This document shows, in pieces, positions 26,998 through 43,299 of a DNA stretch of 64,000 nucleotides. The position numbers and the translations under genes are program-made. Below the pieces are notes generated by a model, which saw only the letters and a list, made by a program, of their open reading frames with translations, was not told the DNA's origin and ran no database searches. Origin of the DNA: Myxococcales bacterium (GTDB lineage: Bacteria; Myxococcota; Myxococcia; Myxococcales; Anaeromyxobacteraceae); NCBI GenBank assembly GCA_021806645.1, contig JAJZQX010000009.1, positions 62,001 to 126,000 on the forward strand, in the 5' to 3' direction. The stretch's first letter is position 1, and every line of letters starts with the position of its first letter.

Positions 26998-27099
26998 TGG
27001 CGGCAGGACAAGGGAATCGAACCCTCCAGCAGCGCCTCTCAGCACCACTCACCGGTTTTGAAGACCGGGCCCGGCACCAGCCCAGGACGCCCTGCCGCC
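26998..27099 (-). tRNA. selC: tRNA-Sec (anticodon TCA)
   Basis: The minus strand folds into a selenocysteine tRNA: extended acceptor GGCGGCAGG pairing with CCTGCCGCC, anticodon stem CCGGT/ACCGG around loop CTTCAAA (anticodon TCA), a long variable arm, and T-arm GAGGG-TTCGATT-CCCTT. The total of about 102 nt fits the oversized Sec class and no other isoacceptor. The 3' CCA is not encoded. Its presence means the genome can decode UGA as selenocysteine; selA, selB and selD are not in this window. Confidence 0.93.
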
Positions 27100-38987: not shown

Positions 38988-39050
38988 CGGCTTGGGCGCG
39001 GGGCCCTATAACCCCGCGTCCTTGCGGCTGTTCGGCCGCGAGATGGCTTC

Positions 39051-39127
39051 GGTGAGGTAGCTCAGTCGGCTAGAGCGGGGGTCTCATAATCCCCAGGTCG
39101 GGAGTTCGATTCTCCCCCTCACCACCA
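39051..39127 (+). tRNA. tRNA-Met (anticodon CAT), attachment site of an element
   Basis: Acceptor GGTGAGG/CCTCACC, D-stem GCTC/GAGC, T-arm GGGAG-TTCGATT-CTCCC and an encoded 3' CCA are all intact. Anticodon loop CTCATAA sits on stem GGGGT/TCCCC, which has one U-U mismatch at its closing position. The 1:72 pair is normal, so it is an elongator Met tRNA, or an Ile tRNA decoded through lysidine; sequence alone does not separate these. Its 3' half is duplicated at 40992. Confidence 0.93.
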
Positions 39128-39183
39128 GAACGGCAACAACAGCGCGCAGTTTCGCGGCCCGCCGGGATCGCCCGGCGGGCCGC
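39080..39183. repeat. Left direct repeat of integrated element (attL side)
   Basis: 104 bp running from the anticodon stem of tRNA-Met through its 3' end and a downstream hairpin. It matches 40992-41095 at 99 positions; differences are at 39087 (T here, C there), 39151 and 39170-39172. The exact 1912-bp spacing and tRNA location are those of a tyrosine-recombinase insertion. Confidence 0.85.
39154..39183 (+). terminator. Hairpin after tRNA-Met
   Basis: GCGGCCCGCCGGG, loop ATCG, then the exact complement: a perfect 13-bp GC stem 27 bp after the tRNA CCA. There is no T-run, so termination without one is assumed. The copy at 41066-41095 keeps an 11-bp stem. Confidence 0.55.
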
Positions 39184-39390
39184 AGTGCGGTTTCTCGTCC
39201 GCTTGAGGTCGCGGAAGGCTGGCGCCATCCTCGTCTCGATGACGTTGGTCCAAGTCAGGTTGGAATGATCTGCCCTCGGAGGCGGCCATGAGCCGCCCAG
39301 TGGTTGGCCGCCCCTCAGGCCACAAATTGCCGGGCTGGATGTCGGACCTACGGTCCATGGTGCCTTCAGCACTTGAGGGGGCGCCACATC
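39184..39390. other. Element interior, left end: no gene seen
   Basis: About 200 bp between the attL repeat and the Cas3 fragment. Wobble-position GC is not biased in any frame and no known motif, RNA fold or recombinase site is visible. Confidence 0.5.
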
Positions 39391-39654
39391 GTGGAGAGCT
39401 ACTTCGACTACTGGGGCAAGGCGCAGGTCGAAGGAGAACCCGACGCGTGCCATCTGCTGGCCTTTCACTCGCTGGACGTGGCGGCCGTCGGTGCAGCGCT
39501 ATTGGCACACGACCCCGCCCTGCTCGATCGGGCTGCGGCGCTCTCGGGTTTCAGCCGCGACAGCCTTGAGAGGGTGCTGCCGTACCACCTCGCCCTTCAC
39601 GACCTCGGGAAGTTCGCGGAGACGTTCCAGGATCTTCGGCCAGGCACGACGCCT
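39391..39654 (+). pseudogene. cas3 fragment: HD-nuclease N-terminus of type I-E Cas3
   Basis: From a GTG the first about 88 codons read as the start of Cas3: Y-F-D-Y-W-G-K, then C-H-L-L-A-F-H-S-L-D-V-A-A-V-G and L-H-D-L-G-K-F-A-E-T-F-Q. These correspond to the N-terminus of E. coli Cas3, including the conserved histidine of the first HD motif and the HD pair. After F-Q-D-L-R-P the frame becomes unrelated Gly/Pro/Arg text; the rest of the HD domain, the helicase motifs and about 800 residues are missing. No other cas gene or CRISPR repeat is nearby. An incomplete remnant, not a functional nuclease. Confidence 0.72.
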
Positions 39655-39997
39655 CCGCCCTCCGTGGCCGGGGGCGTTGTCGTATCGGCAGGCGCATGGT
39701 CGAGGGCTCCGACGCCTGGCAGAGAAGCAGGCCAGGGCCAAGGCGGAAAGCAAACGGAACCGGGCCGCCAGTCAGCGCGGTGTGCCAAGAGCGCAGAAGG
39801 CAGAGGAACGTGTCGCCTCACAAGAGGCGGGACGTTCCCGCAACCTCGCGGCCGAGGACGCCCGCGAGGCCAAGCCCGCCGTTGTTGAGGCGGTGCGGGA
39901 ACTCCTGGTGGCGTGGCAGAGGGAGCCAGGTAGGGCGTCCGGGGACTTCCGTTCCCCCGGGGGGTGGTGCTACCTTCCGCGAAGGAGGCACAATCCC
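39655..39997 (+). other. Possible coding remnant of unknown origin
   Basis: The plus-strand frame two shows a charged, alanine-rich helical stretch (about 39700-39945, for example RGLRRLAEKQARAK and AVVEAVRELLVAWQ) that could be the tail of a lost protein, but it has no start and runs into the antitoxin region. No family recognised. A GAAGGAGG ribosome site at 39981-39988 serves the next gene. Confidence 0.3.
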
Positions 39998-40279
39998 GTG
40001 CGCCGATCCCTTCGCCTTTCCGAGTTCAGCCGCCTCACCCCCGGCCAGCAGCGCGAGAGCGTTGCCGAGCTGGCGCGGGCCGCCCATGGCCCTGCCAACG
40101 GTGAGCTGCTGTCCCTCCAGGACGAGATCAGCGCCTTCGAGCGCCGGTACGAGTTCTCCTCTGCGGAGATGGTCGTGCGCCTCAGCGACGGCCGGCTGCA
40201 GGAGTCGCTGGAGATCTGCCGGTGGCTCATGTCCCTCGAGGCCCTGAGGCTGGTCTCCGGTGTCGAAGCACGGGCCTAA
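39998..40279 (+). CDS. Antitoxin-like protein of a TumA/TumE-type pair
   Basis: 93 residues starting at a GTG nine bases after a strong GAAGGAGG site, which fixes the start. Mainly helical: F-S-R-L-T-P-G-Q-Q-R-E, then L-L-S-L-Q-D-E-I-S-A-F-E-R-R-Y and a C-terminal E-S-L-E-I-C-R-W-L-M-S-L-E-A-L. No DNA-binding fold is obvious. Its end overlaps the toxin gene by 20 bp, the usual antitoxin-first arrangement. Wobble bases include more A and T than neighbouring chromosomal genes. Assigned mainly from the partner; independent evidence is weak. Confidence 0.6.
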   Translation: MRRSLRLSEFSRLTPGQQRESVAELARAAHGPANGELLSLQDEISAFERRYEFSSAEMVVRLSDGRLQESLEICRWLMSLEALRLVSGVEARA

Positions 40280-40727
40280 CCGCCTCCTCGCCTACATCGA
40301 GATCCACGAAACCGTACTCGCCAAGCTGAGGCGCGGTGGCTTCGTGGAGAGCGACAACCTGGAACTGCTCCCTCTCCCAGGCGACGTCCTCCACATGGAG
40401 GGGGAGGTCCGCTGCGCCGGCGGGCTCGTGATCACCGTCGACAAGTACCTGCGGATCGTCGACGGCGCCGGGACCGCCGACCCCACCGTCCAGACCTACT
40501 CCTACGCGTACAACGTCAGTCTCGCTGGGCGCGGCAACGTCTTCCGGTACGACAACGCCCACGACCACGCCGGGCACCGCGACCGACACCACCGGCACCA
40601 GTACGATCACCGCACTGGCGCCGCCCTGGAGGTGACGTGGGTGGGGCCGGACTGGCCCACCTTGGGCAAGGTCATCGAAGAGGCCCGGGCGTGGTACTGG
40701 GCTCACCACGACGAGCTGACCGGGTAG
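40260..40727 (+). CDS. TumE/DUF6516-family toxin
   Basis: 155 residues from a GTG inside the antitoxin gene. The family's features are an N-terminal helix, a beta segment V-D-K-Y-L-R-I, then the run T-Y-S-Y-A-Y-N-V-S-L-A-G, F-R-Y-D-N-A-H and a histidine-rich H-R-D-R-H-H-R-H-Q-Y-D-H that is the presumed active or metal-binding region. This pattern is that of proteins annotated as TumE-family toxins; molecular target is not established. Codons such as CCT, GAA, GTA and GGT are more frequent than in flanking genes, consistent with transfer on the element. Confidence 0.75.
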   Translation: MSKHGPNRLLAYIEIHETVLAKLRRGGFVESDNLELLPLPGDVLHMEGEVRCAGGLVITVDKYLRIVDGAGTADPTVQTYSYAYNVSLAGRGNVFRYDNAHDHAGHRDRHHRHQYDHRTGAALEVTWVGPDWPTLGKVIEEARAWYWAHHDELTG

Positions 40728-40991
40728 CTCAGCTCCGGCCGCGAGCAAGTAGCCGACGCCGCCAGCGCCTCACTGGAGGGCGATCGGCGGGCGGGTGAGG
40801 CGAGGGGAGGGTGAGCGGGCGATCGTCGCACTCGGGCCACGCCAGCCGCGTTGACATGGGCGTCGCGGGAAAAGGGCGCGCGAGCATCCGTACCCCACCT
40901 GTACCCCACACCCCACAGCCAACGACGGCCACGGGCAGCCACAAGACCCCTGGAATCATTGAAATCCGCAAAGTTAACGGAGAGTGGATCC
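40728..40991. other. Element interior, right end: no gene; integrase missing
   Basis: About 260 bp between the toxin stop and the right repeat, where a tyrosine integrase would usually sit. No frame has coding bias. The only structure seen is the set of repeats at 40890-40916. Confidence 0.5.
40890..40916. repeat. Short direct repeats, possible integrase arm-type sites
   Basis: GTACCCCAC at 40890-40898 and 40901-40909, and ACCCCAC at 40910-40916, about 100 bp inside the right attachment repeat. On the minus strand they read GTGGGGTAC. Similar GTGGGGGTA repeats are familiar near the ends of P4-like genomic islands. Confidence 0.4.
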
Positions 40992-41095
40992 GGTCTCACA
41001 ATCCCCAGGTCGGGAGTTCGATTCTCCCCCTCACCACCAGAACGGCAACAACAGCGCGCAGTATCGCGGCCCGCCGGGATCAGTCGGCGGGCCGC
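40992..41095. repeat. Right direct repeat of integrated element (attR side)
   Basis: Displaced copy of the tRNA-Met 3' half and downstream hairpin. It lacks the 5' half of the tRNA, so cannot give a functional tRNA, and has CTCACAA in place of CTCATAA in the anticodon loop. Confidence 0.85.
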
Positions 41096-41127
41096 GTCCT
41101 ATTTGACCGACCGGCTCGGCCGCGGGC

Positions 41128-41550
41128 CTACTGGACGACGATGACACCCGAGATCATGTCCATGCCGCAGGCGTAGCGGAGCTGGCCGCTCTTGACGGGC
41201 GTGAACTGGACGACGACCGGCTTGTTGAGCGGCAGCGGCTGGTTGATCCCCATCTCCTTGATGACGATCTCGGTGGCGCAGGTCCGGTCGGTCTTGCGCG
41301 TGACCACCAGCGTCACCGGCTGGCCCTTCTTCACCTGGATGTTGGCGGGGACGAAGCCGTCACGGGTTACCGAGAGCTCGATGGCCTGGCCGGCCTGCTG
41401 GACCGTGGCTGCGGCGGTGGTCGCGTGGCCGGCGCCGTGCATTCCGCTACCGCAGCCGCCGGAGCCGTGGTCGCCCAGCGCGAGCGCGACGGCGGGAACG
41501 CCGGCGAGGGCGAGGAGCGAGGCGGCGGAGATGATGGTGGTGAAGCGCAT
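41128..41550 (-). CDS. Secreted cupredoxin-domain protein
   Basis: 140 residues. Signal peptide about 1-23, a Gly/His-rich spacer (G-D-H-G-S-G-G-C-G-S-G-M-H), then a single cupredoxin domain: D-G-F-V-P-A-N-I-Q-V-K-K-G-Q-P-V-T-L, T-D-R-T-C-A-T-E-I-V and R-Y-A-C-G-M-D-M near the end. The histidine of classic type I copper sites is replaced by Cys in both ligand segments; this Cys/Cys/Met variant occurs in cupredoxins next to copper or redox proteins. Periplasmic. The ATG at 41550 has a GGAG site nine bases upstream; a Met ten codons earlier is rejected. Confidence 0.8.
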   Translation of the reverse strand: MRFTTIISAASLLALAGVPAVALALGDHGSGGCGSGMHGAGHATTAAATVQQAGQAIELSVTRDGFVPANIQVKKGQPVTLVVTRKTDRTCATEIVIKEMGINQPLPLNKPVVVQFTPVKSGQLRYACGMDMISGVIVVQ

Positions 41551-42624: not shown

Positions 42625-43299
42625 ATGGACGTCGCCGCCCTCATCCTCTCGGTCGAGTTGGCCGCGCTCACCACCGCCATCCTGCTGGCGCTGGGGCTGC
42701 CGCTGGCGTGGTGGCTGGTGACCAGCCGCTGGCGGGCGAAGTTCCTGGTGGAGGCGGTGGTGGCGCTCCCGCTGGTCCTGCCGCCGACGGTGCTCGGCTT
42801 CTACCTGCTGGTCGGGCTCGGGCCGCACAGCCCGGCCGGCCGGCTCTTCGCGGCGGCGGCCGGTCATCCCTTCCCGTTCTCCTTCACCGGCCTGCTGGTG
42901 GCCTCGGTCCTCTACAGCCTGCCCTTCGCCGTGCAGCCGTTCGCCGGGGCGCTGGCGGGCGTCGATCGCCGCCTCGTCGAGGCGTCCCACACCCTCGGCG
43001 TCTCCCGGCTCGCCACCTTCTTCCGCGTCACGCTTCCGCTCGCCTGGCCGGGCGTGGTGGCCGGTGCGGTCCTGGCCTTCGCCCACACGCTAGGCGAGTT
43101 CGGCGTGGTGCTGATGGTGGGCGGCAACATCCCGGGGCGGACGCGGACCCTCTCGGTGGCCATCTTCGACCACGTGGAGGCGCTCGAGTACGCCGCCGCG
43201 CACCGGACCGCGGGGCTGCTGCTCGCCATCTCCTTCGCGGTGCTGGCGCTGGTCTACGCGCTGCAGCGCCGGACGGTCCTCCAGTGGAACGGACGCTGA
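42625..43299 (+). CDS. modB: Molybdate ABC transporter permease
   Basis: 224 residues with five to six membrane segments. L-P-L-V-L-P-P-T-V-L-G-F-Y-L-L and the EAA loop E-A-S-H-T-L-G-V-S-R-L-A-T-F-F-R-V-T-L-P-L are the ModB signatures. The gene follows modA by 12 bp and overlaps modC. Confidence 0.93.
   Translation: MDVAALILSVELAALTTAILLALGLPLAWWLVTSRWRAKFLVEAVVALPLVLPPTVLGFYLLVGLGPHSPAGRLFAAAAGHPFPFSFTGLLVASVLYSLPFAVQPFAGALAGVDRRLVEASHTLGVSRLATFFRVTLPLAWPGVVAGAVLAFAHTLGEFGVVLMVGGNIPGRTRTLSVAIFDHVEALEYAAAHRTAGLLLAISFAVLALVYALQRRTVLQWNGR

Follow-up and report, generated by a model that had tools for sequence, protein, structure and literature searches.

Here we report that a short open reading frame in a Myxococcales bacterium from the Anaeromyxobacteraceae family codes for the N-terminal 85 residues of a type I-E Cas3 protein. 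It lies at positions 39391-39645 of the window, that is, of the whole 64,000-nucleotide stretch of DNA that was analysed, and its identity, its subtype, and its truncation point are established. With a probability of about 0.85, we consider it to be an inert, fairly young 5' remnant of cas3 from a type I-E lineage of the Anaeromyxobacteraceae type. A deletion or rearrangement would have cut cas3 after codon 85, removing the helicase part together with the remainder of the operon. The break may have followed a published pattern, in which a deletion begins at the end of the operon where the array lies and extends into cas3, and the resulting scrap, now most likely inert, would have come to lie in a 1.8-kb mosaic between a tRNA-Met gene and its partial copy. 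The features of this region are as follows.

39051-39127, plus strand: tRNA-Met gene with anticodon CAT, which resembles an attachment site and lies on the left (ARAGORN, Rfam)
39080-39183, plus strand: left copy of a 104-nt direct repeat, made of the tRNA 3' part and the stem-loop behind it
39184-39390, no strand assigned: 207 bases ahead of the Cas3 start, without a match in the DNA of relatives or in plasmids
39391-39645, plus strand: 85-codon remnant of the 5' part of a type I-E cas3 gene; it starts with GTG, and GAGGGGG precedes this codon by 9 nt (profile matches, end of homology, codon composition)
39646-39888, plus strand: open continuation of the remnant frame, without Cas3 homology or coding signature
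39657-39694, minus strand: 38-nt piece, 82% complementary to 40538-40575 in the toxin gene
39998-40279, plus strand: 93-codon ORF ahead of the toxin gene, probable antitoxin (same place in genome G016, 45% over 98 residues)
40260-40727, plus strand: TumE-type toxin ORF, 155 codons (Pfam PF20126, E 6.2e-08; relatives found)
40992-41095, plus strand: right copy of the 104-nt repeat, a partial tRNA-Met with the stem-loop, 95% identical

Identity and truncation point of the cas3 fragment

The reading frame that begins with GTG at 39391 encodes an N-terminal HD-domain start homologous to type I-E Cas3 (Cas3e). It matched the Pfam family Cas3_HD (PF18019) at E 1.1e-17 with 65.2 bits against a cut-off of 23.1, the match spanning positions 1-78 of the 207 in the profile, and the PADLOC model Cas3e at E 8.5e-14. 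The NCBIfam Cas3 model NF007248 was matched at E 6.7e-17 over positions 5-87 of 878 only, with a score far under the full-length cut-off, as the match is partial. A profile of five intact relatives, built without the fragment, gave it 125 bits; no other frame of the window scored above 5.9 bits, and the best score on 20 trinucleotide-shuffled windows was 7.0 bits. A chance match or a non-Cas HD protein, in favour of which we found no point, is refuted by these scores and by the three libraries (Pfam, NCBIfam, and PADLOC), where solely Cas3 families matched and no non-Cas HD family appeared at E up to 1. The first-pass annotation of this DNA had recognised a type I-E Cas3 HD-domain start here and had named a profile search against Cas3 HD families as its check; the call held, with no non-Cas family scoring higher.

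Homology to intact Cas3 stops at 39642-39645, at codon 85, and near 39645 the G+C content of the three codon positions shifts from 0.76/0.42/0.80 to 0.70/0.79/0.60. The annotation had the start right and placed the end at 39654, about three codons too far, while its statement that everything after the start is gone agrees with the end of both homology and coding signature at codon 85. The frame runs on from there for 81 codons that lack a coding signature.

We take the residues H, HD, HH, and D to be the metal-binding set of the HD site. In an alignment between the solved Cas3 4q2c and an intact relative, the HH stretch and the D stretch fell well past residue 85, and the helicase likewise lies past the cut. 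The fragment does not carry the complete residue set: half of the HD site is missing, as is the whole helicase part, and the window contains no other cas3 piece. No other cas sequence or array was found within the 64-kb window as tested, no Cascade genes and array adjoin the fragment, and no CRISPR repeat was found at the break.

Related cas3 genes and preservation of the fragment

Matches to the fragment were found in 10 of 60 relatives at E up to 0.001 (the window's own genome being one of the ten). Among 145 genomes from the order, 14 matched it at E up to 0.01, and the profile was matched in 15 of 195 genomes of the phylum. Three other searched genomes of the same genus gave no match, and neither did viral contigs. 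A search of genome contigs with the fragment sequence alone found no relative; an alignment-based search of genome contigs returned 534 related stretches, 80 of which were retained. Each of the best five matches outside the window's genome begins an open frame that is 904-980 codons long. In a tree of 83 rows and 97 columns, in which many forks are unresolved and from which three duplicate rows had been removed beforehand, the fragment groups with four Anaeromyxobacteraceae Cas3 rows (support 98/81). The intact type I-E cas3 genes of Anaeromyxobacter (G021, G017, G005, and G008) resemble it at 57-62% identity over the first 85 residues. They differ from it in exceeding 900 codons and, where the contig allows, in being followed by Cas8e or other I-E genes (Cas8e/I-E genes in G021), whereas the fragment stands alone.

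The length of the fragment has no parallel among these genes. A usable match to the cas3 start was obtained for 89 of the 90 loci examined, and the frames run for more than 700 codons in 68 of them, are cut by the locus end before that in 11, and stop earlier inside the locus in 10. None of the 89 stops where the window's fragment ends, so that conservation at this exact length in many genomes, which the annotation had listed as an observation against its reading, was not seen.

Another family of the order provides a lone 5' cas3 piece of about 26 matching residues (G031, contig C86, L174 3272-3349, minus strand), which looks like an independent remnant, shorter than that of the window. A second match in the same genome (L084, E 9.5e-4) was dropped as cas3, since tblastn gave it no match to cas3.

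No damage is visible in the 85 codons. All 24 of the columns that are at least 90% conserved among the other 85 rows are retained, and 47 of these 85 comparison rows, among which three genes are present twice, likewise retain all of their own conserved columns. Pairwise dN and dS between the fragment and intact relatives are similar to the values among the intact ones. The retained columns and the normal-looking dN and dS suggest a working gene for most of its history and a fairly recent cut, and the remainder of cas3 was probably lost fairly recently; the same measures do not separate recent loss from continued selection.

The resident type I-E system and published precedents

The genome has a type I-E locus of its own on contig C22 (153616-162358; L175, L013), with Cas3, Cas8e, and an array of 118 repeat copies, up to 3 substitutions being allowed. 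The annotation's statement that there is no other cas gene or array is thus right for the window as tested and wrong for the genome. In the best-aligned stretch (E 0.27), the resident Cas3 and the fragment are 29.5% identical; therefore, the fragment is not a copy of the resident cas3, and the resident system is, by sequence comparison, a lineage distant from it. The 115 spacers of this array matched the window over at most 16 nt among the best 15 matches listed, and among these the matches to the window were no better than those to unrelated loci.

Remnants of this kind are already known from other bacteria, and the case in the window is an ordinary one. In Salmonella, the portions of the published account considered here describe deletions that begin at the last CRISPR1 repeat and reach varying points within cas3, leaving 5' cas3 remnants of 303 to 2622 bp among the rows of Table 3 considered (PMC3356390). 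In both settings, what survives is a type I-E cas3 gene reduced to its 5' part and cut at a varying position, and the remainder of the operon is gone. The Salmonella remnants stay at the CRISPR locus beside the array and have a CRISPR repeat at the break, whereas the fragment of the window, at 255 bp, is tRNA-adjacent and off-array and has no repeat at its break. A cas3 pseudogene as the sole leftover after a cas deletion has also been published (PMC2886076). For myxobacteria, where CRISPR-Cas loss has been reported as frequent and probably random in the part of PMC11237760 considered here, the window adds one more example of piecemeal type I-E loss, with the scrap lying off-array.

In related I-E operons cas3 is the first gene, and in four related loci (L014, L015, L016, and L018) the array, read from repeated peptides in translation, lies opposite the cas3 end, so that a deletion of the Salmonella type would produce a scrap like this one. 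Because no repeat lies at the break, the array-side deletion is a step that we infer. Besides this difference from Salmonella, two points count against the remnant reading: no parent locus carrying the matching remainder of cas3 was found, the deletion itself being unseen, and the undamaged codons with a plausible ribosome site make a translated product possible.

The tRNA-Met element

The stretch bracketed by the two repeat copies is a mosaic of 207 bases, the Cas3 remnant, the 38-nt piece complementary to the toxin gene, and the TumE-type ORF with the ORF that precedes it. A second copy of the tRNA 3' part, by which tRNA-integrated elements are recognised, is present at the far end. The direct repeat extends 57 nt beyond the tRNA into the stem-loop, which is unusual and exceeds what an integrase core needs, and a similar short duplication of the tRNA end and stem-loop, about 0.2 kb apart, was seen in G022 (L059 1585-1833). 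No integrase gene was found between the repeats (five ORFs scanned with Pfam, four with PHROGs), and the element DNA had no match in plasmids. G002, of the same genus, has no second tRNA copy in the 5 kb fetched and carries a 224-codon gene directly after the tRNA; the window counterpart of this gene (42625-43299), presumably a ModB-like permease, lies behind the right repeat copy. Among relatives, 3 of the 16 fetched tRNA-Met loci contain a 10-11 kb island in which an integrase and a second tRNA copy are present. In these islands (L056, L057, and L058), tyrosine-type integrases lie directly behind tRNA-Met and are accompanied by phage-like ORFs, marking an integration site in the family. Elsewhere in the window, a selenocysteine tRNA gene was identified at 26998-27096 on the minus strand (ARAGORN, Rfam).

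The annotation held that a CRISPR-Cas system once travelled in this element or was captured by it. A complete I-E CRISPR-Cas island at tRNA-Met that decayed in place, leaving the start of its first gene, is a possible but less probable history. The integrase islands that tRNA-Met hosts in relatives, the 104-nt repeat that brackets the region, and the position of cas3 at the head of related operons, with arrays at the opposite end, are all consistent with it. However, none of the 16 fetched tRNA-Met loci had a cas match when compared with the ORFs of four I-E loci, so the intact locus that the annotation proposed to look for at the same tRNA did not appear. Furthermore, the five intact related cas3 loci have no tRNA-Met within the stretches fetched, and no further cas piece or repeat is left in the window. 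Travel of a system in the element is accordingly not supported, while capture is possible, and a lone Cas3 start is by itself no proof of a CRISPR-Cas system having travelled in the surrounding element. Arrival of the fragment already broken is somewhat more likely than decay of a whole system on site.

Possible function of the encoded peptide

Translation of a peptide from the fragment frame is possible, as the annotation had allowed, given the GTG codon and the upstream GAGGGGG; no sign of a function was found for this peptide, and the fragment probably does nothing. It is very improbable that a translated product has a function of its own, for example as a decoy against incoming I-E systems, even though its codons are undamaged, its conserved columns are complete, and the small element around it also carries a toxin-antitoxin pair. 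Such a peptide would be without half of the HD site and without the helicase, its length is conserved in none of the related loci, no counterpart was found in viral contigs, and its frame continues into the 81 codons that lack a coding signature. The resident I-E Cas3 is, moreover, just 29.5% identical over the stretch. No sigma-70-type promoter was found in 39000-41200, which is weak evidence in such a GC-rich genome. A more specific proposal is more improbable still: the 85-residue Cas3 start, perhaps with the 81-codon tail, would be translated and under selection as a peptide of the toxin-antitoxin element, and would block type I-E systems from its own clade on their entry into the cell.

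Neighbouring toxin-antitoxin genes

The overlapping ORFs at 39998-40727 are probably a TumE-type toxin-antitoxin pair, as predicted from sequence, and they are the sole gene-like cargo recognised between the repeats. Compared with the TumE-TumA system, as described in the part of PMC10584680 considered here, the likeness is that the ORF at 40260-40727 matches the TumE family PF20126; the differences are that its partner is without a family match in Pfam at E up to 0.4 and that the pair adjoins the Cas3 remnant and lies outside it. Plasmids gave no match to the TumE-type toxin. The stretch 39698-39997 was rejected as part of the conserved ORF before the toxin gene, the alignment with G016 beginning only at about 39950. 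The order of the pair is also found on contig C25 of G016, together with a second copy of the upstream ORF, and in the window the 38-nt piece at 39657-39694 may be a reversed fragment of a second toxin gene.
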